From: Auricularia sp. M13
Taxonomy: Eukaryota; Basidiomycota; Agaricomycetes; Auriculariales; Auriculariaceae
Length of the DNA stretch: 64,000 nucleotides
Reading direction: 5' to 3'
Assembly: GCA_037042915.1 (NCBI GenBank)
Contig: CM073203.1
Coordinates: 2,046,001 to 2,110,000, forward strand
Under the pieces are notes generated by a model. It was not told where the DNA came from. It was given only the letters and a program-made list of their open reading frames with translations, and did no database searches. The translations under genes were made by a program, and so were the position numbers. Shown piece after piece: positions 34,657 through 57,567 of the stretch (positions are counted from its first letter, which is position 1; each line of letters starts with the position of its first letter).

Positions 34657-37072
34657 ATGCCCGACACCGCGTCCGCGCAATCAGAGAGCGCGGAGCCGCC
34701 GCCTTCGCACGGGCGCGTAGATGCCACGTCGCGCGAGGATTCTGAATCAGAAATCGCGCCGGCGCAGGAACGCACGCCCGCGCCCGCGCCATTTGCGCTC
34801 ATTCAACAACGCCCTGGGCTGAAGAAAGTAAAGCCGTACTGGCACCCCTATCGAACCATGGCCAAAGAGCGCTGGCTCGGCCGCGAGATGCTCGAGCTCA
34901 TCTCGAGCGAGTTCCGGGACCGCAGCGTTGAATACTACGTGCGCCGTGCTTGCCGCCCGCGCAAGGGACCCGACTCCTGATCCAGCTACCAAAGCGATAT
35001 GCCCTGGAAGCGGGAGTGACGACCATAAACGGCAAACCTGCAAAGGCAGATACGATTGTGAAAAACGGAGATCGCATTGAGTGCGCGCGCCTCAACTATG
35101 CTCGTGTGCCTGCCAGTAATGTGCCGTTCTCAACGCAGAAACATCGTTCATAGGCACGAGCCTCCAGTCACCTCGACCCCAGTGCGAATATTGCACGTTG
35201 ATGAAGAAAAGGAATTTATTGTCGTGGACAAACCGGGCAGCATCGTATGGTCACCAACCCTCTCGTCTTTCCTTGCTTACGCGGAAGGCCTATCTAGCCC
35301 GTGCATGCTACCGGACGATACTTTAAGCATAGCCTTGTTGAAATTCTGCGTAATGAGCTCGGCATCGCGAAACCTCACAGTGAGTTCTAGGCTTCAGTCT
35401 ATCGACATGCTCAAGCAGGTATCGACAGCCGTTAACCGTCTAGACAGGCTCACGTCTGGGCTTATGATCATCGCTACAAGCCCTGCCCGAGCAAGGATTC
35501 TCAGCGACGAGTTTGTCAACAAAGCGATCAAGAAAGAATACATCGCTCGTTGCAAAGGCTGTTTCCCGGAGTACGGTTTCTCCTTCCTCCCATCAATGCA
35601 TAGGCCGGCTAACCTGCCCCTGGCATTTTAGAGACGAGGTCGTCTGCGATCAGCCTATGCTGACAGTCGATCGCCAGATGGGTCTCAATATCGTGCATCC
35701 TGAGGGAAAGGTGAGAGGCCGAGGCCAGTGGACATGGATCGTTTCATCAGCGCGGCCCTACGAGCCTGGCTAACCCTGCAATTTGTTAGCCCGCGAAGAC
35801 GATCTTCAAGCGCTTATTTTACGACGCGAAGACGGACTCTAGTGTGCTGCACTGTGAGTTCGTTAGGCTACCTACGCCTGCGACCCTCGCACTTCTGATC
35901 GCGTCCCTGTTAGGCCAACCTATTACTGGGCGATGTCAGTCTGCGAACGTCGCTGCGCCGTAAAATTCATCGTGTGGCTAAACTTGCACCGACAGCCCAT
36001 CAGATCAGAGTGCACTTGCAGTATCTCGGCCATCCGATTGCTAATGACCCTGTCTACTCGGACACCAAGGTGTGGGTGCGTGTGCTTTTTTGTGATGTGT
36101 CGCAGCATGCAGGCGCTGATGACGTTGGCTGGACTTTGTTGTCTGACATGGTACGTGTAGGGACCTTCGTTGGGCCGCGGCGGACTGTCATTCGACTCAG
36201 CAGAGACACAAACAACTGAAAGCCGAGATCAAACGAACACTGTTTCAGTTCCAGGACCGTTCACGCCGCAAATTGTGCAGGACATGGGCGTTCTCGCCCC
36301 AGTATCTCTGTCAGCTGAGGCGATGAATCTCATCTCAGGCATGCGAAACACAAATCCGCCTGCGTCCATGGTTGCCGGAGGAGGCCTTACTCCAGACACC
36401 GGGATAGACGCTGAAATTCTCGGTGGCGCGCCGTTCGTTGCCGAACGCGCGGCCTCCAGCAGCGCATCGCAGGAGTTCCTCACTGCGCCCTATGGCTCCA
36501 GCATCACTCCGGCAACGCCCCAGGCGCCCATCTCCGCGTCTACAGAGGTCTCCACGCAGGCGCCTTCTCCTGGTGACCATCTGACCCGCGGTCTGCCCGT
36601 AGCGGCGTTAGCCAGCAGTGCCTCGTCGACAAGCCCCCAGCCGAACCTCGCGACCAAGGCGGCGAAGGCATTACCCCGCGAGACTGGTGATGATATAGGC
36701 ACCGCATCGCCCGTCCCCCTCACGCGGGAGGCTGTTGGAATAATCTCGCGCCTCAGGAATATGAAAGATGAGGGCGAGGATTGGAGCCGCTGGCGCGATG
36801 TCATTTTCCGCGCGAAAACGGCGTTGTCCATCAAGCCCGGTCAGGACAAAAGCCCTGAGGACGACACAGCGCCCTTCGTCCCGGCCGTGCACGTAGGGCC
36901 TGACGGTCGGCAGACTCTGTACTGCCCCGAGTGCTATATGCCGCTGCACCCCGATCCCGCGCCGGAGAAGCTCTACATCTTCCTCCACGCGAAGAAGTAC
37001 TCGACATCAGAGTGGAGCTTCGAGACGGAAATGCCGGAATGGGCGCAGGAAGGATATGAGTGGGAGAGCTAG
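34657..37072 (+). CDS. RluA-family pseudouridine synthase (Pus/Rib2-like)
   Basis: Ten exons (34657-34938, 34995-35080, 35139-35244, 35298-35379, 35429-35570, 35632-35710, 35790-35853, 35914-35934, 35996-36075, 36161-37072) give 617 aa. An S4-like region [18 protein letters not shown] precedes the catalytic domain, with [15 protein letters not shown], the motif [13 protein letters not shown] carrying the catalytic Asp, and [17 protein letters not shown]. The C-terminal 300 residues are family-specific, Ser/Pro-rich, ending with [20 protein letters not shown], a possible zinc or RNA site. It fits the eukaryotic Pus8/Pus9-type enzymes that modify U32 in tRNA; no deaminase domain follows, unlike yeast Rib2. 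Exon 8 has only 21 nt. The start is the first Met with family-like context. Confidence 0.88.
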
Positions 37073-37859
37073 CCCCTCAGGCAATCGCGTCCCCGCATGC
37101 TGGTCGAAGCAATGCACGCTGTCTTTGTTTGGGATTTACGCTTCAGATTACCGGATTGTTTTCCCTACCATGTGACTTCATGGATTCAGGCGCGATGAAT
37201 ACAGGATATTTGCTCGTATCAACGAAGCGTTGGTCCGTCTGCGGTGATTCCCGCAACCGTGCCTTGCTTAGACGCCAACCGCGACGACTGCTTTCAATCA
37301 CTTCAACTTGCAATCGCCCTGCAGCACCACATGGTCTTGCCGGCTCGTTCCTGAGCGCATGTCCTGGTACTGTACTAAGCATCTTGCGGACCGTCCGAAT
37401 CATGAGCATGTTGTTCAGCCTCACAGCTTGAGTAATCCCCACAGTGACGAGGTGATGTCTTGCTTTCGTTAATAGCTCAGATTGACGCAGATTTGGGGCC
37501 ATCGATGCTCAACGGGGCGGTCACAATGAGGCTTATACCGTACTAAGCCACGGCGTGCTTATACCGTACTAATTAGCGGCGTTCAGCTGGTTCTACTGAA
37601 TGTCGAACGACGTTCCCTAGACCCTCTTTGGGAGATTCATGGAGGCGCCAGAATCATACGCGCACAGTTCGGGCCGCTCCATCAAATGCTCGTCATGAGC
37701 TGGCACCCGCTATGAAGCCTCATCGCCCTCGCACGCGAATGGAGTGGTAAGCCGGGGAATGCGGCTATAGATTCATCTATATATGACTGATGCTCAAGCT
37801 TTTTACTTGTTACAAACGTTTGACACGTCGAGTACAAGCAACGAGTCTCAATTCTCATT
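37073..37859. other. Intergenic, short repeat CTTATACCGTACTAA
   Basis: About 790 bp. CTTATACCGTACTAA occurs twice, around 37531 and 37559. No gene recognised. Confidence 0.4.
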
Positions 37860-38245
37860 TCAGCGACGGCCGGCAGCGCATCGCGGACACAGTGTCTTTA
37901 ACACTGTCGTTTTGTTCCGAATCTCCTCCTTGACGGGCTGCACCGCGTTGTCAATGTCAGGCCACACTACGGCAGGCAGGGGTTGCCGCACCCGTTTGCA
38001 ACGCTCGTCCAGACATCGCGGGTCGTGCAGAATGCTGTGAATGCATTTCGACGACCCGCAGTCGATTTTTGCTGGGCGACCACTGGGGTCGGCCATGTGC
38101 TGTGAGGAGAGCGTTAATGGCTGGTTGGCGTCGCTTCAGGAAGCCCGCCGTACTCCACAGCTATGCCGCGTTCCGTCCCTAAGCCGCATGAGTCGCGTGA
38201 CATGAGCTATGGTCCATTCCCGGCTCACCAGACGCTCGAGCACAT
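37860..38245 (-). CDS. Small Cys/His-rich protein, family member 2 (exon structure partial)
   Basis: The clear part reads IDCGSSKCIHSILHDPRC and LDERCKR, with the spacing C-x4-C-x5-H-x3-C-x4-C found at 52.7 kb, then WPDIDNAVQ and LCPRCAAGRR before a stop at 37860. Upstream, ATG at 38245 begins a 17-nt exon (Met-Cys-Ser-Ser-Val plus two bases) ending at a GTGAGC donor, like the 17-nt first exons of the other two members. The middle exon, expected to carry a C-G-H box, is degenerate here, and I could not fix its edges, so this copy may be decayed. A TATATAA box lies about 100 bp upstream. No known function; Cys/His spacing suggests zinc binding. Confidence 0.4.
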
Positions 38246-38341
38246 CGTCTCCACAACGTACTATACAGGGAGAAGGTAGGAAGAGAGGGATGGAAGGGAG
38301 TAGTCGATTAGCCACGGACTGACATCCAGAACAACATTGCT

Positions 38342-38348
38342 TATATAG
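38342..38348 (-). promoter_or_regulatory. TATA box for small Cys-rich gene 2
   Basis: TATATAA on the minus strand about 97 bp upstream of the proposed ATG at 38245. The other two members have TATA boxes 71-82 bp upstream of theirs. Confidence 0.4.
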
Positions 38349-39699
38349 GTACCCCGCGGTCGGGCGTTTGTCGATTTCCGCACGCGCTCTCCGAGGACAT
38401 GGATGATGCGACACACGGTGCGCGGATCTACCGCTGCACCAACAAAGAATGGGCTAGACAATTCTTATAGCATAATCACTAAATCAGATAACAAATGGTA
38501 ACATCGCCACGAGGTGGGGGACCGGAGGCACGTTATAAGCCTTTGACACATGGTGCCGCTTGGCTCCATGAGGACTAGCCCTTCGATTCCCCGCCCCGAC
38601 TGAATTCGCGAATAAAGTAAATTGGCAGGTTCAAACAGAGCGTCTCGGTGGCGCATGCTTCAACAAACAAGAGTTCAAACTTAGCAGCACCTGGTCTTCG
38701 CTCTGTCAGGCAGAGAATTGATCCGCCATGCACTCCGGTTCCGCCCCTCACAGGCCTCACAGCTCACAACAAGTTGAAACGGCAGGCGTGCAGCCGGAAA
38801 AGGGTGAAACGTTGCGCGTCTATTCGCCTGGGCCGTGAGTGCGGCGACAACACGACGCGGGCCAGGAAGGACGACGATCTCGTTGTCTTGCGGATGCCGG
38901 ACATCTGCGAAACGCGGATTGAGGGCCAGGGACTGAAGCAGTGAGCCTGCACATCTGCAAGCGCGTCAGACGCACAACTAATCAAACGACGGTTGCGACA
39001 CATGCCCGGAAGCCTTGGGCAGAGAGCCAGACCATGTGCAGGTAACATTGCCGCAGCTGACAGACGAAATCACTGCGCGGAGACAGCAGTTCAAGGTCAA
39101 AAACCGGGTGCCCAGACCCTGGAATCAGGACGTAAAGCACGGAATATCAATGGGAAAACGAGCAGCAGGCCTCAAGGTCTCATGCGTTGGCTCTCCGGCC
39201 AATGGCAGGACGAGCAACAGTCTGAACTGCCTTCGCGTCGTATGACGCTGATAGGGGCGCGGAAGACTAGTCGGAACAGGATTGGACACTAAACAGGCGC
39301 TCAGTGTTTGCACAGGCCCGAAAGCATGTGAATACCGTTCTGAATGCCGGTATGAGCAGACCGACCAGCATGTGGTTACGGTGTTCGTATTTGCCTTGAT
39401 GTCCCCCCGTGGGAACGCTGGCAAGCAGTGACCGATTTGAAAGCGGGATATTCCGTCAACACGTAAATTCATACAAGCTGGCACAAGTGATGAGATTTGA
39501 GTCGGCGAGATTGTGTAAGCCCCCTTCTCCGTCTGATGTGTACTGTTCTTTTTTTTCTGAGCGTTATATTCGAGACATACGAAAGACTCAGATGAGGGCA
39601 TACCGTCAAAGGCGCTCTATGGCGAAACCTCCGCCGGAGACAGGCGCTTAGGTGACCTAAGCGCGGGAACAACCGGTTTTGCACGCTCCTTGTTTCGTC
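38349..39699. other. Intergenic, nothing recognised
   Basis: About 1.35 kb with only short frames. No repeats or RNA genes seen. The last few hundred bases should hold the promoter of the downstream oxidoreductase. Confidence 0.4.
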
Positions 39700-41389
39700 A
39701 TGTCTTCGCTCGATGTACTCGTGCTCGGCGCTACCGGCTACACCGGGAAGCTCATTGCCAAGTACCTCGCAGCACATCCGGAGCGCGCAAGCTTTACTCT
39801 GGGCGTCAGTGCACGCAGCAAAGCGAAGGGCGATGCTCTACTGTCCTCGCTCGGTCTCTCGCACGACGATGTGACCCTCGTTGAGCTCGATGTGACCAAT
39901 GCGCCTCAACTGGACGAGGTTATTGCGCGTACCAAGGTAGTCATCAATACCGCTGGTCCGTTCTATCGGTTGGGGACGCCGGTCATAAAGTCGGTGACGC
40001 GGCCATTTCAGACTCTCGCACTCACGCCCCCGTCCTTTCCTAGAGCTTGTGCGAGACATGGTGTCCACTATGTCGATATTACAGGTGAATTTGGTCCTAG
40101 CATTGCCCAATCAAGGCGCTGACATTTCCCAGGCGAAACGTTTTGGATTCGCAGCATCCTCGGCGAGTTCGTCGTTAATTCGTGGTATTTTGGCTGTGGC
40201 ACTGAGGCACTCTTCCAGGGTTGATTTACTTGCGAGCAAAACCGGCGCCATCATCATTCCCTCGTGCGGCTTTGACTCGCTCCCCTCGGACATCATAGCA
40301 TTCCTTTCGGTGTCCGCCCTCCAACAGCACTGCGAATCCCAGCGTATTCCATGGCCTGGTGCTTCTGAATCGACTACTGGCTACGACGTTGCTCTCAGTC
40401 CTAGTGGGGGCACATTGGAGACGATGAGCATGTCCTTCTCCGAGGTTCCCAAGCACATTCTGCGTGCGGGCTTCGCGGCATATTCTCTCAGTCCCGGTAT
40501 GTATCAGAGCTTATTGAGTTCTTCGCGACCCAGTGCTGAATTAACTTGGTTCAGTGAAAGGAAAGGACAGCAACGCGCCTCCTTTGCCACTTCACAGAGT
40601 GCACCACATGCCTCATCGTTGGGGCAGTTTCTTTGTCATGTCCCGGACGAATCGTGCTATCGTTCACAGGAGCTGGGGTCTTTTCCAACTTCAGCAGGCG
40701 GGCCTATTTCCCGCCAGGGGCTTTCACCACTATGGCAACGACTTCAAATACGAAGAATTTTTGACTTCATCGAACCTGTTCTCCGCGCTCGTCAAGAGCA
40801 TCACAATCATGACATTCAGTTTCCTCCTCGCCTTCGTACCACCGGTATGTGCACCCTCCTTTTTGTTCGCAATATTTTCCTCTCAGACTACGAATACAGA
40901 TCCGCTGGGTTGTGAGGAAGATGACTCCTCCGGGCACGGGGCCGTCTGAAAAGTTCGATTGCTTGTTCCCAGTTTTCTTTCTGCTCATTCTGCATCACGC
41001 AGAGTTCTGAATTCTGGACGTCTCAACGTGACAAATGTCACGTACCTTGCCGGCGACAAACGCACCTTCGCCCGTACCACATTGCGGGGTAAAGGTGATC
41101 CTGGGTACTTCCTAACCAGCGGTGCGTTGTGTTACCGGAATAAGCTCAATTTTGCAGCAGGCTGATGCGCGTATGCCCTCTTATCCGAACAGTCATGGCC
41201 GCCGAGTCCGCTTTGAGCCTGCTCTTCAACGCTCCAGACAAGCTGGGGCCTCTTGCTTCGCCCGGCGGACTACTCACCCCTGCGACCGCCCTCGGGAATG
41301 TCCTGCCGGACCGTCTCCGCCAAACCGGCCTATTCGAATTCAGCAGCGAAATCGTCCGCGATTCGGGCGAGGATAGGAAGACCCGCTAA
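39700..41389 (+). CDS. Saccharopine-dehydrogenase-like oxidoreductase
   Basis: Eight exons (39700-39989, 40044-40084, 40133-40181, 40219-40496, 40555-40844, 40900-40952, 41003-41121, 41193-41389) give 438 aa. The Rossmann start MSSLDVLVLGATGYTGKLIA, NTAGPFYRLGTPVI, CARHGVHYVDITGE and IIPSCGFDSLPSD are hallmarks of the saccharopine dehydrogenase-like (SCCPDH/trans-acting enoyl reductase) family. VKSITIMTFSFLLAFVPP is a membrane segment, as in SCCPDH, which sits on lipid droplets. The C-terminus LTPATALGNVLPDRLRQTG is family-typical. It is not the lysine-pathway enzyme itself; the substrate is unknown. The intron 40182-40218 would be only 37 bp, so that junction is the weakest. Confidence 0.82.
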
Positions 41390-42550
41390 AGAGATGCTTC
41401 TGTCCGTTTCGAACCTGTTGCATTGTTGCTCGCCGCCTCTTTTCGACCAGTAATGTACTGGCTGTGCGTTCCTTCTTCGGTAATTCTCACTCAACGCGTT
41501 CGTAAATTGGCGCTGTCTCCGTCTGTGTTCGAATGCTTTGACCAACGTCCATTCTGTCGGCCGCCAGCGTCAAGGCTGCCCTCGGGACGTGGCGCTGTGT
41601 CTCATTGGAGGCGATATGTCCGCGGACTGGTCTGACAGCTCAACGTCCTCGCATACGTCAATGCTCGATCTGGGCCCGCTCACACCCGATAGAGGTGGAA
41701 CGATGAGCGAGAAAGGCTTAATTCTCAGCCCACATGACCCATCGGGATAGCTGCCTGCGACGCGCAGGCTCTCAGAACCACCTTTGTGCGGTGGTCAGCC
41801 GACCGCTCGTCCCGGGCATTACCCGCCCAGAATCATGCTTGACGATCGATACTGTCGAACGCGAATCTAGTCGCAATATGAGATTATTCCGCCCCGCTCG
41901 CTGCCAACCGCTGGGATCTGTGCGACAAGAAGTATTGTGTGTCATGATCCCATGGCCCTGGTCACCGGTAATGGGATGCTTCGCCTTCCTCTCGTATGAT
42001 GAGAAGCCGGCAGACCCTCATGTCGTGGATCGAGTGACACGGTGGCGTAGGAACTCCAGGAATCGCAGTGACCTCGTGCCTAGGCCTATAATTACGAATC
42101 TAAGCTGCCTGCAACCGCTACCGCTGGCCTCCTGCCTGGTCGGATCTGACGGGTGGAACGCGTTCTCCGCGTGTACGACAACGGAATGTTTGCGGCTAAG
42201 AGAGACAAACAATTTCGAGGGCGCGCCCTCCTTTGCATTGGAATGCCGAGGCTATGGCCAACAGCGCCTCATCTTCGCCAGATCGCCCTCTGATTCACAG
42301 TATTTGTGTGGTCTGACAAGGAGCTTGCAGAGTCGAGGCCAACCTGGAGGGTTAGGTGACATTAGGAATTGGGGATGTATTAAAGGTCATGCGTCGTGGC
42401 AATACAGGTGCGCGAGAGCGTGAAAGCGATAGGCATACCAGGCCCGAGATGGTTGTAACGCCGCACAGCAGCGATATGGGTAAGATGCAAGCCGTGAAAG
42501 ACGGGCCACGGCGAGAAACGGTTCAGGTCGATCATGTTGTGCCGTGAAGT
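41390..42550. other. Intergenic, nothing recognised
   Basis: About 1.16 kb. A 229-codon plus-strand frame (41734-42423) has irregular composition and no family resemblance, so I leave it out. Confidence 0.4.
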
Positions 42551-42959
42551 TCAACCGCTGCCGCCCGCTGCTGCTTGTGCGCGCCTGCAGTTGGGGCATG
42601 GGCCAGTTCGGCGATACAGGGTCTTGTTGATGTCGGATTCCCAATGCTGCTCAGGGATTAGCTATCAAAGTGATGTGGCAAACGCTCATTCGATAATAGG
42701 TACGCACCTTCAGGTGATTGAAGCAATTGCGGCAGTTCGGCGGATGCCTCGAGCTGTGCGTACAGGCGGGATTCTGGCAGTCGACAATGCTGAGAGGCTC
42801 AGGGCGGGTGTGATAAAAATGCTGGCAGCGATGAGATATGGCAGAGACGGCAGCAGTCCACAACATACGCCACACTCGGGATACTTATTACCCTCCCTGC
42901 GGACATGAGATACGACGAGACGATCGTATAGGAAGGACGCACCATACTCTGCAGCACAT
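42551..42959 (-). CDS. Small Cys/His-rich protein, family member 3
   Basis: ATG at 42959 starts a 17-nt exon (42959-42943; Met-Cys-Cys-Arg-Val plus two bases) with a GTGCGT donor. A later exon, 42789-42708, reads IVDCQNPACTHSSRHPPNC followed by RNCFNHLK: C-x4-C-x5-H-x3-C as in the member at 52.7 kb. After a 61-bp intron the last exon 42646-42551 reads HWESDINKTLYRRTGPCPNC and a basic tail. W-x-x-D-I and C-P-x-C also occur in member 2. Between 42943 and 42790 a C-x-H-bearing exon (RLCHISSLPAF, about 42850) is likely, but I could not choose among several AG acceptors. TTATAAAA lies 71 bp upstream. Function unknown; probably a zinc-binding peptide of about 80-90 aa. Confidence 0.5.
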
Positions 42960-43029
42960 TGTCGATCGCTTACTGAACGGATGCCGAAAGTGATGGGTGG
43001 TAGTGAACGCTCAGCCGGAAATGGCTGCG

Positions 43030-43037
43030 TTTTATAA
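43030..43037 (-). promoter_or_regulatory. TATA box for small Cys-rich gene 3
   Basis: TTATAAAA on the minus strand, 71-78 bp upstream of the ATG at 42959. Confidence 0.45.
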
Positions 43038-44426
43038 CGGAGAAAGTCGGGTCACGTGCTGAAACGTACTCCGAGCTTCCTTGTTGGAATCGATTCAATT
43101 CCGCGGCCCCGGCTGCGCTCGCCGAGACGAGCGCGCGTTGGATTGGTAGAAAGCATATGAACTCGAGCCGGTCCGCGCCAGAGATAGGGATATCTGGCCT
43201 CGCGTGGCAAGCGTGTTCTCGCTGTCGATTAGATCTCCTGCCCCTTTGCAAGTCTCAGCCTGCAGGATGGTCCAGTGGGGTATCGTAATAGAAGGCGAGC
43301 CATGCCGAGCACTCCATGCGGCGACGCCGGTTGCTCATGGGGCGGCTTGGCGCGCACAAAGGCGCGGAGACAAGGTCGGGCGTGCGGGACGAAGCTCCTA
43401 TCTCTTGCCACCTGCTGCACACCGCGTCTCGTCCAAGTAAGCAGGCGCTCCGGTGCTTCGATAAACGAGAAATCAGTCAAGCCGCAGGCCCCAGCCGCCA
43501 GCAATTCCCAAGTCGGGCGCGAAGAGCAATCGCAGTCCCACTGAATGCAGAGAGCTCGCTCGGGACGGATGGCCGGTCCTTTGTCGCACACGATTGTTCG
43601 TCATGTGAGCCGTCCTGCCGATGCCTTGTCCAGTACGCCGAGGGCGTCATGTTTGCGCGAGCAGTGCTCAAGCCGCCCTGATCAACGATCTCGCCTTATT
43701 TCCTGGAACGTCATTGATTTGTGCAAGAAGGAGAACCTTTCATCTCAATGCTTGCAGGATGACGACAGTCGTCAAGCACGCCATGGAGAACGTGAGGCTC
43801 GAAGAGTGCACTGCGACAAGTGAGATCAATTGAGAGGAGTTTATCGATAAAGAATGCATTGCGATGAGCCCCCCTGGTGTCAAAGTCAGCGCAGTCATCG
43901 GATTTATGTTGCAATAACAAGCATGAGTTGTTTTGCGTTCCTTCACTGCAGCATCGTCACACATCACCATGGCGTTGGCGCAAGGGCTGTTAGACTGGCT
44001 GGTGAGATATGACAAGTCGATCTCGTCGATTGACAAGTTCTGGCCTCATTGGTTAGCGTAAGATCACACCAAACTGGAGGAAAATCACGTACAGATACAC
44101 GTCCGATACCAAGGGCGACCCTTGCATAGTTGAATGAATCCACCGAACGGTACATTCCCGTTCATTTTGGAGTTGTTGGTGACCGGCAAGAGCTCGTGGA
44201 GCGTTGCGATGTCGGCAGTTCCGCCGATGATCTTCAGGACGAGCAGCTTCCAAGCTATCAGCTACAGCGCGACAGGTTGACCAGCAGACCCAGACTCGAG
44301 GTGGACGCCTCGCTCTCAATGCAATACTAAAATCGAGCGGATCGTCTCTACGATTCATCCATACTGCCAACGGCGTGAACGAACGAAAATGATGAAAGCA
44401 AGTCCCCGTAAATGCAGCTGTCACGT
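43038..44426. other. Intergenic with protein-like scraps
   Basis: About 1.4 kb. Two short protein-like readings were seen: plus strand from the ATG at 43970 (LLDWLVRYDKSISSIDKFW), and minus strand around 44255-44155 (IIGGTADIATLHELLPVTN). Neither could be extended into a spliced gene. They may be gene relics or chance. Confidence 0.35.
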
Positions 44427-47400
44427 TTACTCCTCACTGTCGTCACCGTCCTCCTCATCTTCAGAGACTTCGTGGCCGGCTGCGCGCAATGCTTCCTTGT
44501 CTCGCTTGCGCTTAGCGCTCAGCTCCTCAAGGAAGACAAGGAGATCTTCGTGCTCCTTCTCCTGCTCGCGCTTGCGCTCCTGTGCCGCGTCGAGCTCTTG
44601 CGCAAGATTCGCCACCTGTGCCTGTAATGCATCGCGCTGAGCAAGGACAAGAAGGTTAGCACAGGCGGTTTTCGGCAAATGCAGTCAAGCTCGCCTCTTC
44701 ATCGTGGGACCGGGCGGCCTCCTCAAGCGCCTCGACCTTCTTATGGAGTGCGGACGTCTGCGAGCAGATTAGGCTGGACATGCATCTACGAGACGCACAG
44801 GCAAACACACCTCGTCCTCGTGCGCCCGAACAGCATCCTCCAACCCCCGAACCTTCTCGAGAAGGGCTTCCCGCTTGCGGTTGCCATGTCAGGCCAGGGA
44901 CGCGAAGAAGCGCATAATAAGGAACCCGTACCTCCTCCTTCTGCGCCCGGCTAGCTTTCCGCAGGGCGTCCATGTCGTCTGCCTGGCGCTGGATGACCTC
45001 CCGGAGGGACGCGATAAGCGTGGCCGACTCAGGATTCGCAGCTAGCGCGACGAACGCGTCAGCCCTCGCCGCCACCGTCACCCAATCATCTAGTACTCAC
45101 AGTCTGCCGCGCGCGCCGCGTTGGGATCCGCGTGCACGCCACGCTGTATTGCGTCTGTTTGCGGTGCGCGGGTGAGCCGACGTAGGCGACGCGCGTGTCG
45201 GACGCACAGTAATTGCTCTTCCAAAACTCCACAAACTCCCAGGCGAACCACATCTCTCCCTCGTCTGCCGCCTCGGCGAGCAGCCGCGGGTACGGCGTCA
45301 CAGAGCCCTCGGGCGCGGCAGACCGGAACCGCTCGTCCTCGCGGAGACGCGACATCCGCGCGGCCAACGTGTCGGCGCCTAGCCGGACGATGAGCGGGTA
45401 GATTACGGTTCTGCATGAATGCGAGGCCAGGCGTCAGCCAGCGATAAAGACGGACACCTGCGATGCGATACGGGCGTTCAGACGCGTACCTTGGTATCTC
45501 GCAGTGCTCGCGATCGAACTCGTACAGTATGCCGAGCACGAACGCGCAGAGCCCCTGCACCGCGGCGTCGACCTCCTCCTGGCCGATCGGCTCGACAAGC
45601 TGCGCGTTGACGCGTCAGTCACGCCATTGGACAGATAGACGATTGGGCTCACGGTACTCAGACTGCCCGCCTCCAAGACCTCGCGCACCGCGCCCGGGTC
45701 ATCCCACAACCACTGGCTGAGCAAGCTCAGAATGCCGACGACACACCGGTCCCACTCGCGCGCCTCCCTCAGCGCGCCGTCCTGCTCCGCCCGCGAGCGC
45801 GCGAGCAGCGCCAGCGCGAGGTGCTCCGAGAGCGTCTGCAGCAGCGTCGGCGGCGGGTCGTCGTCGTCCCGTGGCGACGTCGGGCCCGGTGCAGGCTGCG
45901 CACCCCCATCTGCCGGGACGAAGAACGCGGACGTGTCGCCGGGTGCTGCGACGGCTGATGTGGGCAGGGCGGAGGGCACGATGCCGCGCGCGATGTTTTT
46001 AGCTGCTGATGAATTGCGCACGAGCGAGGCGAACAGTAAGCATGATATGTGCAGGCGCGCAGCCGAGTGGCGCGTGATGGGCGACGTCGGGAGCACCACC
46101 AGTCCGCTCAGCAGCGTCGTCACGGCGCCAGGAGCTGGCTTGCGGTCAGACAAGTTTAGCAACGGTGAGTAGCTTCGAATGTGCACCTGCATTTGGGTCG
46201 AGGTTCTTGAGCAGACGCAGCTTGACCTCGTCCGGGCGCACGTAATTCTGCGAGTCCGGCGTATATAAACAAACGTTTCCACGAGGAGACTAAATGGGCC
46301 CACCTCAAAGACTTGGACTGCCGCCCCGCGCAGCCCAAGCGACACGGCGTCCAAGGGACCGTACATCGTGCCGCTGTACTCGCCGTTTACGGCGACGTCT
46401 ACCAGAACATCCAGCGCCAACCGAGCTTCCAGGCGGTCCCATTCCTCGCCGTTCGTCTCGGGCACGGGTACATAGGGTGTGATGACTAGGTCGAGTGGAG
46501 GTGAGTGATGAGGGAGGAATTGAAGCGCCTGCAATCCTGCGACTTTAATACACGACCGCCGGGTTCACGACGCAGTGGGCGCACCTGGAGCTTCAACGCG
46601 GTTGGGGCGTTGGATGCCAATGCAAGCTCGACGAGGAAGCGAACCATGGATGAGTCTCCTCCCTACATAGGGCTGCATGAGCGAGAAGGTTGTTTCGCAT
46701 ACAGAGTATGCATTACTCACGGTGTGCCCTTTGCTTCCCGCAAGCATGCCAATGATACCCAGAACAAGCTGCGCACTTGCTGCTTTCTGCGCATCCCAGA
46801 ACTGGAGTGCAAACTCTTGAGGAGCTTGCGCGTTGGGTGGGAGGTTGGCTGGGAATAGAAAGAGGGGACATAACGTCGCTGCGAGACCGATTTCGCGGAA
46901 ATAGTTCTGCAATGGTTCAGGACATCAACCGCAGAGAATGATGAATTGAACGTACCAGGTTGGAGACGTTGAAACGAAGCAGGCTATCCATGCATGTAAG
47001 GCATTCGCCGACCACGACGCTGCCCTCGATGCCGCCCTCTTGCGTGATAATTCCTATGAGCTTTTCGAATGCTCCTCCGAATGCGAATATTTTCTGGATA
47101 TCGGCATTCTGTGCAATGAGAGCCTGGATGACGGAGAGCGCCTCTGTGCATGATGAGCAACGAATATGCAACGAATGAGCCGACCGTACCATTGCGAATA
47201 ACCTCGCGCCTGTCGTCCAAGACGTTGATCACGGTCGCCGCGTCGCTTGTCCGCAGAAAGTGGGTCTGTACTGCCTGCCTCCTGTGGATGAGCAGGGCCG
47301 AGAGCAGTTGCAACGCAGCGAAACGCGTATAGTACGTGGTGTCGGCGAGCAGGCTGAATATGGTTTGTATGGCGTTGGCGTCGGCCAGGATGGCGTCCGC

Positions 47401-47718
47401 GTGCCGCTGGCTCGAGTCGCGCCCTGAGGCGGCCTCGGTGTCGCATAGCAGCAGCAGCGTTTCGAGAAGCGCCTTGCCCAGGTCGCCGTCCACGCTGGCA
47501 TCGGGCAGCGCAGCCAGCAACGCCGGCAACGCCATGGCTGCCACCTGGTCGGCCATGTCGCGTGCCAGGCCCTTCAACGCTAGTACCGACGCCCGGCGGT
47601 CGGCGATGGACGGCGCCTGGGCCAGACGGTCTGCGAGCTTCGTGATCGTTTCCTCTGGCAGCTGCGGCGCCGCCGCTGGCCCGCGAATGGCCGTGTACGT
47701 TTGCGAGAAGAACTCCAT
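44427..47718 (-). CDS. USO1: Vesicle-tethering protein Uso1/p115
   Basis: A long multi-exon gene starting MEFFSQTYTAIRGPAAAPQL at 47718. The N-terminal two thirds is the armadillo-like p115 head: LADRLAQAPSIADRRASVLA, AALQLLSALLIHRRQAVQTH, GGIEGSVVVGECLTCMDSLL, then EFALQFWDAQKAASAQLVLG and the second-half helices down to about 45430, including AVQGLCAFVLGILYEFDRE. The C-terminus is a coiled coil (RDALQAQVANLAQELDAAQE) ending in the acidic tail SEDEEDGDDSEE, the p115/Uso1 C-terminal signature. It tethers ER-derived vesicles at the Golgi with Rab1/Ypt1. The tail is short compared with yeast Uso1. I checked the open blocks but not every splice junction. It is divergent from the tRNA gene 158 bp upstream. 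Confidence 0.85.
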
Positions 47719-47876
47719 CCGTCGCGACCGGGCTAGAGAGAAAGCTGGCAGCACGCGGAGTTACCAGGCGATCGCGTCGTGGCGGACTTGAACCAGCACA
47801 CAAGTCGAGCCGACATCATGATTCTCTCTCTGGATAATTTGGGATGGTATATGTTCAATACCTACCTTTCTACAAG

Positions 47877-47970
47877 GCCTTCTTAGCTCAGTGGAAGAGC
47901 GCGCCACTCGTATCGGTTTCAAACTCCGACAGCGATGGTGAGGTCGGTTGTTCAATCCAGCCAGGAGGCA
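47877..47970 (+). tRNA. tRNA-Thr(CGT) with a 22-nt intron
   Basis: Acceptor arm GCCTTCT pairs with AGGAGGC (one G-T pair), followed by discriminator A. The D arm is GCTC...GAGC. The anticodon stem CGCCA pairs with TGGTG; its loop reads CTCGTA before a 22-nt intron placed after position 37 and resumes with A, giving anticodon CGT (Thr, codon ACG). The T arm is GGTTG TTCAATC CAGCC. The mature tRNA is 72 nt before CCA. T5 follows at once as a Pol III terminator. Box A (TAGCTCAGTGG) and box B (GGTTGTTCAATCC) are present. Confidence 0.9.
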
Positions 47971-47975
47971 TTTTT
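47971..47975 (+). terminator. Pol III terminator of tRNA-Thr
   Basis: TTTTT directly after the discriminator base of the tRNA. Confidence 0.85.
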
Positions 47976-48650
47976 GACGTCAAAAAGCCAATGGTTTTCC
48001 TGCCCAGGCATCCCTTCCATTCGGAGCCCCTCAATTTTAAAAATTATTTGCTGCTCGGGCGTTATCTGAATTGGAAACTGAATTGTCGGTCGGGGCCGGC
48101 CCAGGTCCGCTCTTTGCACAGCCTTTTTCCCTTGATGACCTCTTACGATCCCTGCAGTTGCGCACACTTTGCTTCAAACCGTATGATACCTCTTTCCAGT
48201 CTGAGCACGAAAGCTGCAGCCTTGTTGCTTTCAAAAGGCAGCTAATCTGCACGCCCGGCTCCGTATTCTTCTTTCGTCGACGTCTCCGTGGACCGCGAAC
48301 ACTGGACCTACTAGCGCCCAGAATGACTTCGAGGAGAACTTCGACGCTTATGAGCGCAGGCTTACTCATCGACGAGCCGGCAAATGTGTCAACTGCGGTC
48401 TGCTCAGCTCGGTCCCTCTGGTGCCCATGACTAGATGTTTGCTGTTTGGGACTTGCCACCAGCTTTCCACTCCCCCAGGATTACGAGCTCGATTCATCAG
48501 TCTGCTGACCATGGTCGTGCTACTTTGAATGCTTCGACCGCCAGGCTATGCTTGTGGCGACAGAGACGTGTAGCCACGTTCTACACACCAACTTTGCTAT
48601 AAAGAGGCCTGGCCGTCTGTTAGCTGGCAGCAGTCGACAATCCTCCTCCC
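47976..48650. other. Intergenic, nothing recognised
   Basis: About 675 bp between tRNA-Thr and the methyltransferase. Frames of up to about 140 codons on either strand lack family-like text. Confidence 0.4.
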
Positions 48651-49678
48651 ATGACAACAAAAGCCCACGAAGCGTCGCTGAGCGTGGTCCCTCCTCTGTA
48701 TCCTGCAAAGCTCGTCCTGGGACCCGTCGAATCAGACTTTTTGAAGCGTCAAACGGGCATCCAGGACGACGATCTGCTGCGTCGTCATATCCTTGCAGTC
48801 CAGGAGAAGGCGTATGCTGTATTTCCCTATCCATGCATCTATGCGTTCTCCTTTCTTGGGCATGTCTCGCTCATAGCATTCCTGAAAGTTGCTAAGCATG
48901 TAACAGGATCAGGATAATGCGCTCCCCGGCGTATGAGCGTATCCTCCAGCTCGGCCGCGAGGATGCACTATTTCTGGATATTGGATGCTGCTGTGAGTGC
49001 AGCGCCGAGCTTTTGAGCCTGGAAGTAGAATCATTACCCATTTCAGTTGGAATGGATGCTCGTAAATTGGTCGACGACGGATTCCCCGCTGCGCAGGTTA
49101 TCGCGTCAGACTATCACGCAGGTGATGCACTCCGCCCTCACTTCACTGACCTGCTACTGACAACTACAAAAGAGTTCTGGCAGCTCGGAAACGAGTTGTT
49201 CAAGACAACTACCGAGCAGTGTGGAATCCACTTCATCTCTGGGGACGTCTTCGACGACGGCCTCATCGACACGGAGGCGCCGAAATCAGCAGCGCCGCCC
49301 GCATCGCTCGAGCGCTTGAACAATCTCACACCATGCCTCGGACACTTCAGCGCCATCTATGCCTCCGCATTCTTTCACCTCTTCTCCGAGGAGAAGCAGG
49401 CACTCCTGGCACGTCGTCTCCTTGCGCTGCTCAAGCCTCGACCAGGGAGTGTCATCTTCGGACATCACGTCGCCATGGAGCAAGCGGGGGTCTTACAGGG
49501 CAGCAAGGGAAGCCTTTTCTGCCATAGCCCGGAGACGTGGAGGGTCCTCTGGATTGGAATAGGCGAGCAGGTGGGCATTCGCCTCGAGGTGAAGACGACG
49601 ATGGAGAGGGTGACGAGCGAGTTCATGCAAATCGCGGAGAATGGCTTCTTCATGGAGTGGGAGGTTTCCGTCGTCTAG
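48651..49678 (+). CDS. Class I SAM-dependent methyltransferase (fungal AusD-like)
   Basis: Four exons (48651-48844, 48907-48992, 49047-49121, 49173-49678) give 286 aa. Landmarks: AVQEKAYAVFPYPCIYAIRI near the start, the SAM-binding motif I FLDIGCCFGMDARKLVDDG rebuilt by splicing, VIASDYHAEFWQLGNELFK (acidic motif II and following helix), HFISGDVFDD, and IYASAFFHLFSEEKQALLAR. The set is that of fungal methyltransferases related to AusD/VrtF of meroterpenoid pathways, many of which in Agaricomycetes stand alone. No polyketide or terpene synthase lies nearby, so the substrate is unknown. The first intron has an unusual GTTCTC donor, chosen because it alone restores the frame. Confidence 0.75.
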
Positions 49679-50124
49679 ATTCGAAGTCTACTTGTTGCAT
49701 GGCTTCAACAGCCCTGGCCCTGCCTCTGTACAATCTCGATCGACTGCCAGCTTCAACGCAAATAAGAATTAATGAAGATATTTCACTGCTATACTGTAAT
49801 TGCTGAAGATGACGCGTCTTTCGACTGAGCCATGTCTATATTGCGAGATCGGAGACTGAGAGGCGGATAAGGTCGCGCCTGCTTGCCTGGCCTCATGACG
49901 ATGTTATATCATGTACGGCCACACGAGATTGACGTGAGATTCGCTCTGATTCTCGGGCGCCTTTCTGAGATTTTTGGATCTCACCGATTGTGAGGGTGCT
50001 CAGGATATTGCTGGATTGGCGAGTTTTCCGGGCGCTTACGCAGCCCTGGGAAACGAGGGGCGCGGAAGATGCCGCTCAGCGGCTTGCCACCCGCCCTATC
50101 ACTTGGGCGACCACCAGGGTTTCT
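49679..50124. other. Intergenic, nothing recognised
   Basis: About 450 bp between the methyltransferase and the RBR ligase; likely promoter. Nothing distinct seen. Confidence 0.4.
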
Positions 50125-52074
50125 ATGGCTAGCCACAAGCCTAGCCGCCCCACTTCACGGCTGTCCAGTGACGACCTGCCTGTCCCGAAGGCAGGACTGC
50201 GCGCGTTTCAGCCTACAGTGGACGAACTGAACACGGCGGTTGCGCTGCTGCACGACTTCTTTCCTTGCGCGGACATCGCCCTGCTCAGGCAGAAGTTGGA
50301 ACAATCTTCTTCGGTGAACGCCACGGCAGACCTGGTGGCCAACACGCTCCTTGACCAGGGTCTGACCCAAGCATTGCCGACCGGAGCAGTCGCGGTTCTG
50401 GACGCCCGGCATATCTTCCGAACTGCAGAATACAAACGCGCGGTTGGCAAGATCTTGTACGTATCACTAGAATCGATCTGGGGATTAACGCTATACAATA
50501 CGCTCTAGGATTAAGGAGTTCGAAGGCCTGTCAAAGGCGACGATCGAGACTGTCCTAACTGAGAACGGTCACTCGTATTCGCATTCCCGCGCGACGCTCA
50601 AGGCCATCGCGAAAAAGTCGTGGCTCTTTACTCTGTCATCCTGGTGGCGTAGGCGCAAACCCGTATCGGATCTTCCACCGTCTCGTAGCGCTACCGGCAG
50701 CGTGGAACTGAACCAGGAGCTGCACCTACTGTACGCGCCCGAGCGAGAGAAGCAAGTGACTTCTGATTATGAACTCGCCCGGAAGATCAACGAGGAAGAG
50801 CACGATACGCTTGGGCTTCTTACCGAGTGTGGCTGCTGCTTTGCTGATGTAGTCTGGGAAGACGTGGCTGCCTGCGCCGCTGGCCATATGTTCTGCACCA
50901 ATTGTCTCGTGCGCAGTGCCCAGGACTATGCGTCTTCTACGATCCGCTGCATATCTGCGTCGACGCTGGAGACTTGTGATGCGCCCGTGCCTCGCGCTGT
51001 GCTCGAGGCTGCCCTTCCTGGAGCAGTGCTCAGGGCCTTGGACGACCGTGCGGCCCGTTTTTCAGCATCGCGCAATCGAATCTGCAACTTCTTTCGTGCC
51101 CCTTCTGTCCCTATGCCGTCTGCGAAGAGACGCCGGAATACCATGTCAAATTCCAGGCACGGCTATTATGCTATCTTGTCTTATTTACACTTCTACGACT
51201 CCTATCAGTGCGGGCTGCACTCGCATTGGCCGCTCTCGTCTGCTTGCATTCTTGCATGATGCTCACAGATCAAGCCAACCGCCACTTCTCCGCGCTTCTG
51301 GGCGCAGATGCAGGCGCGCGTGCTATTGCCGCCAAGCGGAGAGGAACGCGGTTCATCTGCCGGAACCCGGACTGTCGCCTGGCCAGTTGCACCGTCTGTG
51401 ACAAAGCATGGCCGTCTACCGCGTCGCACAACTGTGTCGAAGACGAGAAGGAAAAGCTACGGCTCTTCGTGGAACTCGCCATGGCAGACGCTGTGAAACG
51501 GACGGTGTGTTTACTGCTGTTGAGCGACTCGTTCCGAAGCCTGACTGACTCTTTCCCAGTGCCCCAAGTGCCGATGCGCTTTCGTAAAGGACGGTGGGTG
51601 TAATAAGATGACCTGCCCTTGTGGATACAAGATGTGGTGCGTCCGTGCTGCAGTGTTTCACACTAAGCGATCGGTTTGGAGGACTCACGCAAAGTTTGCC
51701 ACCTGCAGCTACCTATGCCGTGCAAACCTCGCGGAAGAAGGATACGATCACTTCTGCCGGCATTTTAGGCCACACGGTGGACCGTGCCGGCAATGCCAGC
51801 GCTGCGACTTGTACGGAGAGCTGGATGACGATATGGTGGCACGTGTGGCCGGGAAGCAGGCCGAGAAGACGTACATTGCCGCGCATGGTGATCCCACACA
51901 AAGAACTCGGATGTCGCGCCGGGAGAGCGGTATGTTTCATCCCACAATAATTACAACCCAGAACTGACCCTAGACGAGCCCTATCTTCCGTGGAGATGGA
52001 GCGGAATCTTGCACTTCTTTTCTGGGAGCATGCCCTTGCGGTGGACATCGACCAGGTATAACCTCGAGGCGTGA
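50125..52074 (+). CDS. RBR E3 ubiquitin ligase (Triad3/RNF216-like), apparent frameshift
   Basis: Exon 1 (50125-50456) starts MASHKPSRPTSRLSSDDLPV; exon 2 opens at 50509. RING1 is ECGCCFADVVWEDVAAC to CTNCLV, the in-between region has SCPFCPYAVCEE and FICRNPDCRLASCTVC, and RING2 reads CPKCRCAFVKDGGCNKMTC with the catalytic Cys in GGCNKM, then YLCRANLAEEGYDHFCRHF. The order RING1-IBR-RING2 and the ECGCC start are those of RNF216/Triad3. RBR enzymes take ubiquitin onto the RING2 Cys before the substrate. Between 51058 and 51062 there are five T where six would keep DDRAARFFSIAQSNLQLLSC in one frame; no intron fits. This is either a homopolymer error in the assembly or a real break. The last exon after 51930 is tentative. 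Confidence 0.75.
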
Positions 52075-52386
52075 GAAGGCAGAGAGGCCTCGTCCTCGGT
52101 TACTCAATCGGCCACCTCGTGTTGCGCCCGTGTCCTTCTAGGCACTTGGACCATGAACGCGGCCATGACATGCTCCGACCGTATGTATTACCCTGGCGGG
52201 AGCGACGGCGTTCCCGATTCACTTGGATTCGCCGCCGGGTCAGCTGCCTACGGAAGGAGCGCTCCCAAACGCTTCACGACCCCAGGTATCATTCGCCTGC
52301 CGACAGGTATCAACGCCGCACAACTACACCACCCGCATGGGGAGGTTCTGCGGCGTGACTGTTCATTGACCCTTGTATCGGTAACC

Positions 52387-52394
52387 TATTTAAA
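52387..52394 (+). promoter_or_regulatory. TATA box for small Cys-rich gene 1
   Basis: TATTTAAA, 75-82 bp upstream of the ATG at 52469. Confidence 0.45.
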
Positions 52395-52468
52395 CCCACC
52401 TCGTTGGACTACAAGACTTGCGCTCGCACTCCTTGCCTGACTTGACTCGTCTCTCCTCTGTCTTGGAT

Positions 52469-52997
52469 ATGTGCTGCTGGAGACGGTGCGTGCTCTGTAG
52501 CGCCCACGCCGCTGTCATCTCATCAGTGAACAGTGTTCGAAACGATTTTCTCTTGTGTGGGCATTCGTACCAGCTCGTAAGAAGCTCGTCGGAACGTCAT
52601 CGCCGCTTTGTTTCTGATGCTCTCATCGACCCGCTCCGCAGCCTGACGAGCTGGTGAGCCTTCTGACCGTGTGTTCGTGCGGCCCGTGCTCATGGATACC
52701 GCAGATTGAATGTGGGAAGCAGAACTGTCGGTTCAGCGCGTACCACGACCCTAACTGCGTCGAGCCGGAGTGTCGGAGAACTTGCGCTCAGTTGTACGTG
52801 TCGCGCCTCTTTCGCTGTGCTATGTTGTTTTAGCCAACTCAATGCCCTCGCGATAGCCGCACCTACCCGCAAGTATACAGTGAGCCAATTGTGGTTGACC
52901 CTGCAATCGCCATTGACGCTCGTGCTCCCTGACAGCGCCGCAGATCAATAGGCGGTGTCCGCCTTGCGAGGAAGCCTACAAGCGCGGGTACCGCTAA
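52469..52997 (+). CDS. Small Cys/His-rich protein, family member 1
   Basis: Six exons (52469-52485, 52534-52576, 52642-52653, 52705-52793, 52857-52890, 52944-52997) with GT-AG introns of 48-65 bp join in phase to 82 aa. It starts MCCWRRVRNDFLLCGHSYQL, continues PDEL (a 12-nt exon) and IECGKQNCRFSAYHDPNC, VEPECRRTCAQF, and ends INRRCPPCEEAYKRGYR. The spaced Cys/His (C-G-H, C-x4-C-x5-H-x3-C-x4-C, C-P-P-C) suggest one or two zinc sites. The first intron is 48 nt without a stop, so its retention gives a 98-aa form. No signal peptide. Two relatives lie at 37.9 and 42.6 kb. I know no named family. Dense exons make it invisible to ORF scanning. Confidence 0.65.
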
Positions 52998-53751
52998 ATC
53001 CTCTCCGTCTCGCATCGCGTTGCTCTCCGTCAAGTTCTTTGTCTTTCGGCCGATATGTACGAAGCTCCCTGACCTGCCTGTTGCTCGGCGTCGTTTAGCG
53101 CATCAATACATGACGACACCGCCGTCTTCTGTCTGACCAATGCTCGATCGTCAGTTGAGTAGGTGTAAATTGGCGACTGATGACGTTGTCCGGTCGTCCT
53201 GAGATATTGGTGATCATGGATACCACGCGAGCGTCAGGGCCTAATCTCACACGAATAGGTCCGATTTTTCTGCAACCGTTGGGCTGGACAACAAGCAATG
53301 TCCGTGTGATTCCCGGCTTGTATTGTCTTGACGAATCGTAATGCGCGCAACTGATGAGGGGGGTCTCCGCGGCGCATCGTGAGAAGTTGATTGCTCCGAG
53401 GAAAAGCAGAGTGACAGCCGAACTCAATCAAGTTCTATGCAGTCCTTCTGAATCCTAGCTGTCAACGTCATAATCCCGTCCTTACACTTTCCGAGCTACA
53501 GACTCTTGTAGCAGGAATAGCCTACAGTCTGCATTGTTCTGTGCCCGGCACGCCCGCCTAATTTAGGCGCCTGATGGCGAGCATGGATTGTGCATATTGG
53601 AATTGATGAGCCCTGGACGTCATAGAGGCACTGCCGCCGAGATTTTCCGTTTTGCCGTGTGGATCTGTCCTGAATATATTGCATGCAGCGCTGAGAGTTT
53701 ACGTTTCTCGCCAACCTTGATCTTGCCTTTGTCCACCGTCCCCAGACAAGG
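52998..53751. other. Intergenic, nothing firm
   Basis: About 750 bp. A 110-codon minus-strand frame (53095-53427) is open but has no recognised family and no splice support. Confidence 0.35.
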
Positions 53752-54491
53752 ATGACGCCCCCCAGCACGCCGACGTCCATCCTGCGCGCCGCGCCGCCCA
53801 CGCCCACTCGCGTACGTCCTACCCCGCATCCCCTGATTGCTTCCTTGCTTGCATTGTTAGGATGCTGAGACTCTCTGCTTTGCTGCAGGTGACCTTCGTG
53901 CCTCAGTCGCTGTGCGACGCGCTCGACCCCATCTGGCGCGAGCGGCTGCGGGGGCAGCTCCCACGTCGGTCGTCGTCCGAGTCCGAATCATCAATATACT
54001 CCTCGCCGTCGTCCGCATCATCACGCGCGTCTTTGTCATCCGCAAGCTGCTACAGCGTCGCAAGCGATGAGACCTCGCCGGAGACCACCCTCGAGGACGC
54101 CGACGAAGACGAAGACGGAGGGGAGGGTGCGGACGGCGCGCACGCGCACGACGGCCTCGTGTACCCGCCACGCGACTCGATCGAGATCTCCGTCAATCGC
54201 AAACGCGCTGCGGCGATGAACAGGCTTCAGGCACACTCGCCTGCGCCCACGCGCGAGCTCGAGAGACCGTTCTCACCGCACACGCCGCACCTGCGTGTTG
54301 TCGAGGTGACTGTGGCGGACGACGAGCTCGATTCGCACGTGCCCCCCGCGCTCGCCGCGCGGCTCTCCCTCCGTGTCAAGAAGAAGCCGAGCGCACTCAA
54401 CCTCCTCGGCCACCGCGTCGTCTCGCGTGTCAGGGACATGGTCTCCGTATCCTCCCCAGGCAAATCTCCGCGCAAAGACGCGTTTGCCTAG
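53752..54491 (+). CDS. Serine-rich hypothetical protein, two exons
   Basis: Exon 1 (53752-53811) encodes MTPPSTPTSILRAAPPTPTR and joins over a GTACGT...CTGCAG intron to exon 2 (53889-54491): 220 aa. The start resembles short N-terminal ILR...TPTRVTF motifs of kinase- or phosphatase-docking proteins (the VTFVP right after TPTR recalls an RVxF PP1-docking site), an inference only. A serine run (residues about 45-70), an acidic stretch (about 85-100) and a Lys/Arg-rich C-terminus follow. Mostly disordered. Both exons are in phase and the proximal start has good context (AGGATGACG). Confidence 0.6.
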
Positions 54492-56588: not shown

Positions 56589-57567
56589 CACTGTGGAACC
56601 CAGTTCGCGCGATTTTGCACCGGTCAGCAACCGGTAGACGCGAGATATTCCACTTTCTGCCGGTGTCTGGCGGAAAGAGCTCGATTCGTCCCCGGTCGAG
56701 ATTCCGCCGGATTTTCGGTGGAATTGACGGCAGTGACAAGTGATCAATGAAAGACTCCTCGTAGAGGTGGGGTTCAACAGTTTATGACTTTTGAAGAAGA
56801 TTACATTAGTTGCCCATCAGGGGAAGCTCATGGACGTGCATGGACGCTGTTCAGCGTCGGTCTGACGGAGCGCTTACGGAGCCATGAAATCTCGGGAGCC
56901 TGTGAGGAGGTTCCGAAGCGAGCCCTGACCGAATGCCGCAGCATCGGTCTCGCCAATCTCCATCTGGCCACTGCCCTCCAGACCTCGGGCGGAGCTTGAC
57001 TTGGTACTCGGATTTTGGCTCTAGGTCCTCAGGTATATAAGTGCAGCTTTTGCCCGAGTAAAGCATGTTGACATTCGGAGCCTCACGATCGTCTCTAGCC
57101 GTGATTGCCACCAAGGTCCTGAACCTTGCAGGTATGCATCCTTCTTGCTAGCTCTATGTGCTTGTGCTGACTACAGCCCTGCAGAAGATGGCCCCATGGA
57201 GCTGTTGTGTGTGCTGGAAGCAGAGTCACATCATGAATGTAAATTAGTAATGGTATAGAGGATTAACTATTGTTGCTACTTTTGTCACGTCACAGTAAGG
57301 TCTGGGAAGGGCGAATGGGAAAGCCTTTTGAAGGACCCGGGATGCGTCTCATCGCAGTATAAAATCCGGCCGGCCGAAGTCAGTTTTTCGTTTCCGAGCG
57401 TGCTTCGGGGGACTGGAGGAATGTGTCAAAAACTGCTATTTTATTGTCCGTAATGGACGGCACAAAATTTTCAGGCATGGTTTGAAAACGGCCAGAGGAT
57501 GGCTGAATTTATTCTGGAGGCTGGTGGAAAGAGCGCGCGCTTTTCGGCCGGCCAGGGTTCCACAGTG
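56589..57567. mobile_element. CACTG-ended DNA transposon, copy 1 (979 bp)
   Basis: Starts CACTGTGGAACCC and ends with the exact complement GGGTTCCACAGTG. No transposase. 56589-57415 is the same as 57568-58394, and 57407-57567 the same as 59069-59229, so copy 1 is the uninterrupted form of copy 2. The right end touches the start of copy 2 with no base between. CACTR...YAGTG ends suggest the CACTA/CMC superfamily. No target-site duplication could be assigned. A TATATAAG-bearing stretch lies near 57036. Confidence 0.75.

Follow-up and report, generated by a model that had tools for sequence, protein, structure and literature searches.

A dispersed family of small Cys/His-rich genes with very small exons in Auricularia sp. 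M13

A 64-kb stretch of the Auricularia sp. M13 genome (contig CM073203.1, positions 2,046,001 to 2,110,000; hereafter the window) contains three loci that encode small proteins with a common arrangement of cysteines and histidines, and genes of the same family are found at 29 or more places of this genome, counting the second copies of the three window genes. Taken as a whole, these genes are very probably best explained as a dispersed family of small intracellular proteins structured by zinc, likely binding modules. The parts of this explanation differ in strength: judged by how the loci are conserved, a real coding family is nearly certain; a structure held by zinc is probable; and a function as a binding module is a tentative proposal. 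The central observation of the original prediction, three loci with shared features, is confirmed, and its interpretation as a whole, a zinc-binding peptide family spread in the genome and overlooked for want of long exons, is partly supported.

Window genes and the shared protein plan

All three window genes open, as had been proposed, with a 17-nucleotide (nt) exon that begins with Met-Cys and ends in phase 2 at a GT donor. The C-x4-C-x5-H-x3-C and C-P-x-C motifs reported earlier are likewise present in each, the former always as C-x4-C-x2-S-x2-H-x3-C. A further motif, C-G-H, is common to the three members and was absent from the earlier description. It lies shortly after exon 1; a phase-0 second intron divides its G from its H in members 2 and 3, and in member 1 it stands uninterrupted within exon 2. 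When the models were rebuilt exon by exon, their start and stop coordinates matched the sequence exactly, and the ten introns measured 46-71 nt, with GT at the 5′ end and CAG or TAG at the 3′ end.

The family plan consists of Met-Cys, a C-x-H (mostly C-G-H) 10-11 residues later, the core C-x4-C-x2-S-x2-H, another cysteine 7-10 residues past this core, and a C-x2-C that closes the protein. Across an alignment of 14 members, M1, C2, C14, H16, C27, C32, S35, H38, C47 and C67 are invariant, and all 14 carry the signature Met-Cys...C-x-H...C-x4-C-x2-S-x2-H...C...C-x2-C save for C64, which is present in 13, the exception (L011) being an incomplete model. A D or E precedes C27 in 13 of the 14. The mean column identity of this alignment is 29%, and the lowest identity to member 1 among the members is 23%, with the Cys/His spacing, the Ser and the C-terminal C-x2-C unchanged. 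Models that reach a stop codon encode 76-112 amino acids (aa), and the protein starts (MCCWRR, MCCRVW, MCSSVW) have, by eye, no hydrophobic N-terminal stretch. The W-x-(x)-D-I motif pointed out before is indeed present in members 2 and 3, and the 14-member alignment shows that it is no mark of the family.

Member 1 (52469-52997, plus strand) encodes 76 aa, MCCWRRVRNDFLLCGHSYQLPDELIECGKQNCRFSAYHDPNCVEPECRRTCAQFRTYPQINRRCPPCEEAYKRGYR, in six exons of 17, 43, 12, 89, 16 and 54 nt, and forms a group with three paralogues, L034, L030 and L036. Its exon 1 (52469..52485) reads MCCWR plus 2 nt, the same as in L030 and one base off in L034. The C-G-H is contained in exon 2 (52534..52576), 43 nt long in all four genes of the group, and exon 3 (52642..52653) is 12 nt long in all four, reading PDEL in member 1 and PDEL, PEEE, PEEE and PDEF across the group. 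Exon 4 (52705..52793) carries the core C-x4-C-x2-S-x2-H-x3-C, and exon 6 (52944..52997) encodes CPPC, followed by the stop codon. The model of six exons, one of them 12 nt, stands as originally drawn; the predicted length of 82 aa does not, because the comparison with paralogues replaces a longer exon 5 by one of 16 nt (52857..52872), the size found in L034 and L030 (23 nt in L036). Member 2 (42551..42959, minus strand; exons 42943-42959, 42869-42896, 42708-42821 and 42551-42646, of 17, 28, 114 and 96 nt) encodes 84 aa, MCCRVWEGNKYPECG followed across the phase-0 intron by HFYHTRPEPLSIVDCQNPACTHSSRHPPNCRNCFNHLKHWESDINKTLYRRTGPCPNCRRAQAAAGGSG. Member 3 (37860..38245, minus strand; exons 38229-38245, 38154-38178 and 37860-38099, of 17, 25 and 240 nt) encodes 93 aa, MCSSVWDGTRHSCG and, after the phase-0 intron, HMADPSGRPAKIDCGSSKCIHSILHDPRCLDERCKRVRQPLPAVVWPDIDNAVQPVKEEIRNKTTVLKTLCPRCAAGRR; its last exon sits within a 91-aa open frame.

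Relatives, exon conservation and tests against chance

The genome to which the window belongs (52.1 Mb, 14 contigs) was searched for relatives at the protein level with single exons or intronless members, to which one pattern-picked region was added. The spread of the family within this genome, as originally claimed, is borne out by the number of places found, a lower bound that covers the best-scoring candidates only; very diverged members will be missing. Several relatives were first found at expect values (E) of ~0.01-0.1 and were accepted because their neighbouring exons fitted.

Member 1, L034, L030 and L036 keep six exons, of 17, 43, 12, 83/89, 16/23 and 54-68 nt, and the phases of introns 1-4 are identical in all four genes; intron 5 deviates in L036. 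The coding identity of the three paralogues to member 1 is 61-69%, while their introns, compared without the splice-site bases, reach 39-47% as against 42-43% for shuffled introns, and when member 1 is aligned directly to L030 the blocks of identity track the exons. Conservation in this group ends at the exon borders, and the introns have diverged to random identity.

The intron-bearing members tested are under selection against protein change. In four of seven paralogue pairs the ratio of non-synonymous to synonymous change (dN/dS, Nei-Gojobori) was 0.11, 0.13, 0.21 and 0.42; the other three pairs are saturated at silent sites, with proportions of differing silent (pS) and non-synonymous (pN) sites of 0.79-0.86 and 0.19-0.28, respectively. 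An inverted duplicate of their region, at C11:367-383 kb, contains one more copy of each of members 1-3. These copies depart from the window genes at 3 positions among 768 coding bases and at 15 among 556 intron bases, with no amino-acid change (pooled Fisher p=4e-4).

The claim that the shared features go beyond chance also holds. A script that looks for Met-Cys, for C-G-H (preceded by no more than one intron, with a further intron permitted between G and H) and then for C-x4-C-x2-[ST]-x2-H within 60-420 bases picked out the three loci and nothing else in the window; on both strands of 60 dinucleotide-shuffled versions of the window it gave no match. Among further fetched loci it marked only L009, L011, L024 and L030, all accepted as family genes; these loci are no random sample, because they had been picked by the Met-Cys 17-nt pattern or by protein match. 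L012 also carries a family gene, which escapes the script because it is of a type (named after L039) without C-G-H. As a sole mark, the 17-nt Met-Cys exon was rejected: the pattern alone matches the genome at 273 places and its reversed form at 173, the first eight pattern matches fetched (L001-L008) did not show the core motif, and in 20 pattern-picked regions the script found two family genes, L030 and L024, the latter without a 17-nt exon. The 'MCRLIV' pattern, which recurs among the pattern matches, proved to lie in a dispersed repeat common to L012, L016, L028 and L007, where the script detected no core motif. Nor was the core motif found at the weak matches C4:727652, C7:749096 and C1:2045124 (L049-L051), and a fourth weak match, C8:993449, contains five stops.

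The search of the same genome for relatives with the 17-nt phase-2 first exon brought the loci that have it to nine: members 1-3, L034 (C3:4.059 Mb), L030/L035 (C3:4.029 Mb), L036 (C4:3.100 Mb), L048 (C2:0.236 Mb), L040 (C11:2.932 Mb) and L056 (C9:2.868 Mb). L048 and L040 split C-G and H as member 3 does, L056 has C-A-H in place of C-G-H, and the 3′ ends of L040 and L056 are provisional. With 9 of the 14 aligned genes having it, this exon is typical of the family, not universal. The first exon of L047 (C4:3.111 Mb) is 12 nt long, and L011 (C4:3.154 Mb) has no intron at the site. Three intronless types also have no intron at the first-exon position: the MCQN type (five places, all read), the MCRN type (two places, one translated in full and the other 99.8% identical) and the MCFS type (four places, two read), and some intronless relatives are open frames of 89-93 aa. 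The L039 type occurs at four places, three of which were fetched, and L039 itself was read by eye.

A TATA box had been reported upstream of each window gene. Members 2 and 3 have literal ones (TATAAAA at 43030..43036 and TATATAA at 38341..38347, both on the minus strand); member 1 has the weak TATA-like TATTTAA (52387..52393, plus strand) and no literal TATA[AT] within 150 bases. Across the family, TATA[AT] lies 50-130 bases before the start codon at 8 of 15 loci (members 2 and 3, L034, L030, L036, L056, L024 and L054), compared with 6.4% of random 80-base slices.

Repeats and duplicated blocks

Some intronless relatives lie on recent repeats. The repeat around the MCQN copies spans 3.08 kb or more, with 98.6-98.8% identity, at three places and extends over 2.0 kb at a fourth. 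The MCFS type and the type without C-G-H are paired on four contigs (C1:3389619-3429239, C4:2590768-2630388, C7:80703-116650 and C9:861410-901168; L012, L039, L052-L054, L057 and L059), where their first match bases are 39.5, 39.4, 35.9 and 39.7 kb apart on C1, C4, C7 and C9, respectively. A 4.5-kb piece of C1 between the paired relatives recurs at 100% (rounded) on C4 and C9, and over 3.6 kb at 93% on C7. Because the three sampled points agree, the pairs probably belong to a single large block of 36-40 kb, putatively mobile, that was recently copied to four places. The parts of the repeats that were read (Pfam on 10 + 8 frames) showed no transposase, and these scans together with a codon-position profile provided no identity for the large repeats. 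Another stretch of 3.2 kb, 75% conserved, is present at L024:6475-9742, C5:849448-852698 (L058) and C7:236915-240167, on contigs shared with intronless relatives; its codon-position profile has no clear triplet signal except near its end.

The second copies of the window genes belong to an inverted copy on the same contig as the window, in which window positions 36486-39566, 41190-44321 and 51207-54288 match C11:367-383 kb (L037, L009 and L032) with 97.9-99.4% identity; window bases 1-387 match there at 91%. The region may represent a large inverted duplication, or else the assembly has joined two haplotypes. L021 (C2:1093500-1103400) and L025 (C2:3175500-3185400) form a similar inverted pair over 7.2 kb at 97% identity. 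Elsewhere in the window, an identical peptide (with stops) can be read twice on the plus strand, at 57051 and 58030; this recurrence at a distance of 979 bases suggests that ~1 kb was duplicated in tandem. Matches at C9:3049163-3088640 recur with a period of ~9.7 kb, a pattern that a ribosomal DNA (rDNA) array may produce.

Interpretation and comparison with known systems

Zinc binding is plausible from the Cys/His pattern, because cysteines and histidines at fixed spacing and a closing C-x2-C resemble zinc-folded small domains. The nine Cys/His residues would act as metal ligands. In the simplest arrangement they would bind two zinc ions, one possibility being a site of Cys2, Cys14, His16 and Cys27 and another of Cys32, His38, Cys64 and Cys67 (member 1 numbering); Cys47 would then be spare or exchange with another ligand. 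We take the proteins to be intracellular because they lack a hydrophobic start by eye, and no enzyme motif is apparent in them. As small intracellular zinc-folded modules they may bind a partner protein or a nucleic acid, the variable loops between the ligands setting the partner, and TATA-type promoters may permit strong induction of some members. According to this reading, a metal-held small binding module would be the simplest function. A far bolder idea concerns the cysteine N-degron, in which a Met-Cys start is cleaved, oxidised and arginylated. Cys2, exposed by Met removal, might be more than a zinc ligand and make these proteins short-lived regulators responsive to oxygen, nitric oxide or metal, which the N-degron destroys unless zinc shields Cys2; the family would then comprise overlooked, micro-exon-coded sensing modules of mushrooms, and one of its branches would travel on large mobile blocks of recent origin. 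We regard this idea as a long shot, and the Met-Cys start that bears on it is present in 14 of 14 models, all of which were begun there by choice.

Other explanations account for part of the data. The one to which we give most room, still an unlikely one, is that mobile elements carry these genes as cargo or accessories, such that the family persists on large repeats and its members with introns represent copies that have settled or are ancestral. The intronless types at five, four and two places would fit, as would the relatives paired 36-40 kb apart on four contigs with a shared piece between them. However, all nine loci that have the 17-nt exon bear introns, the only near-identical copies among the matches listed for them are the inverted copies of the window genes, and the parts of the repeats that were read yielded no transposase. 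It is much less likely that the proteins are metal-storage or detoxification peptides resembling metallothioneins, which would take up zinc or copper in bulk and have no fixed fold: small size, richness in Cys and the TATA boxes of eight loci out of 15 speak for it, but the spacing of Cys and His, the Ser and the C-terminal C-x2-C stay fixed down to the most diverged member, and the Cys content is below that of metallothioneins. About as unlikely, and a shade behind, is that they are secreted disulfide-rich effectors or surface peptides. Small Cys-rich proteins of fungi are often of this kind; here, however, His and Ser are as conserved as Cys, and the N terminus does not look like a signal peptide by eye. 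Least probable is that spurious exons were fitted to a motif. Although the 17-nt Met-Cys pattern is common, the absence of matches in the shuffles, the exon borders kept while introns were randomised, and the exclusively silent coding changes between second copies speak strongly against a chance origin, which was therefore rejected.

Several observations weigh against the reading as a family of zinc-structured modules under selection. Some of the invariance in the alignment is built in: every model was made to start at a Met-Cys, and the C-x4-C-x2-[ST]-x2-H script served to detect or verify some of the loci; the L039 type, without C-x-H, was excluded from the 14-member alignment, and the G of C-G-H is present in 11 of the 14. 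Some splice donors are unusual: GTCTGC (L034) and GTCAGC (L030) after the 12-nt exon, GTCAGC/GTCAGT in L040, and GTATAC/GTTTAT/GTTTAC where the 16-nt exon ends. Member 1 alone accounts for 13 of the 15 intron changes between second copies. The five MCQN copies differ pairwise by 1-3 changes, all of them non-synonymous, and two of the five have C-R-H; on these grounds the MCQN branch may be decaying, with no sign of selection at such depth. Seven loci (member 1, L048, L040, L047, L011, L045 and L039) have no literal TATA[AT] 50-130 bases upstream. Nine ligands cannot be divided evenly into four-ligand sites, the best Pfam match, Zn_ribbon_20 (PF23551), reaches 15.5 bits where its cut-off demands 27, and no relative was found in the prokaryote and viral contigs searched.

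In this family, coding sequence under selection is spread over exons that can be as short as 12-17 bases. Gene finders favour long exons, and the size of the family in fungal genomes may therefore be underestimated. The family signature makes searches of other genomes straightforward; hypothetical proteins of a similar 'MC...CGH' type may exist in other Agaricomycetes. If widespread, the family would represent an uncharacterised zinc-type module among the many genes of mushroom-forming fungi that have no assigned function, and its conserved 12- and 17-nt exons would offer a natural test of the splicing of very small exons in fungi.

The earlier statement that no named family covers these genes holds for the libraries searched (Pfam, NCBIfam and PDB sequences). 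Pfam had none above its gathering cut-off for 11 models, which represent ten genes of the alignment (all but L030, L040, L054 and L056) and include two versions of member 1; NCBIfam, a library for bacteria and archaea, returned no family up to E 10 for the three window proteins, with the older model standing for member 1; and among PDB sequences the best E was 0.69 for member 2 alone, with no match up to E 10 for the 14-sequence profile. A word search of the open-access literature found no paper on such a family, by which its absence is not established. The likeness to the zinc beta-ribbon Zn_ribbon_20 is a weak match of residues 47-72, the C-terminal third, in two proteins of the member 1 type (2 of the 11 models; E 0.018 and 0.11), which differ from it in scoring 15.5 and 13.1 bits and in having the Met-Cys, C-G-H and C-x4-C-x2-S-x2-H parts outside the match.

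By description, there is a parallel in Haloferax volcanii, whose small zinc finger proteins (PMC11241148, PMC6562870) are likewise very small, given as <70 aa in PMC11241148, and have C(P)-x-C motifs; these proteins are archaeal, and the likeness is one of description. Tiny exons as such are already known in fungi, basidiomycetes included: coding exons down to 6 bp are described for P450 genes of the basidiomycete Phanerochaete chrysosporium (PMC1184071), and a functional microexon switch for Xlr2 of Trichoderma virens (PMC11121469). As those accounts present them, these tiny exons belong to genes for P450s and for a transcription factor. Member 1, in contrast, consists wholly of exons of 12-89 nt, and its 17-nt first exon recurs at nine loci and its 12-nt exon at four.

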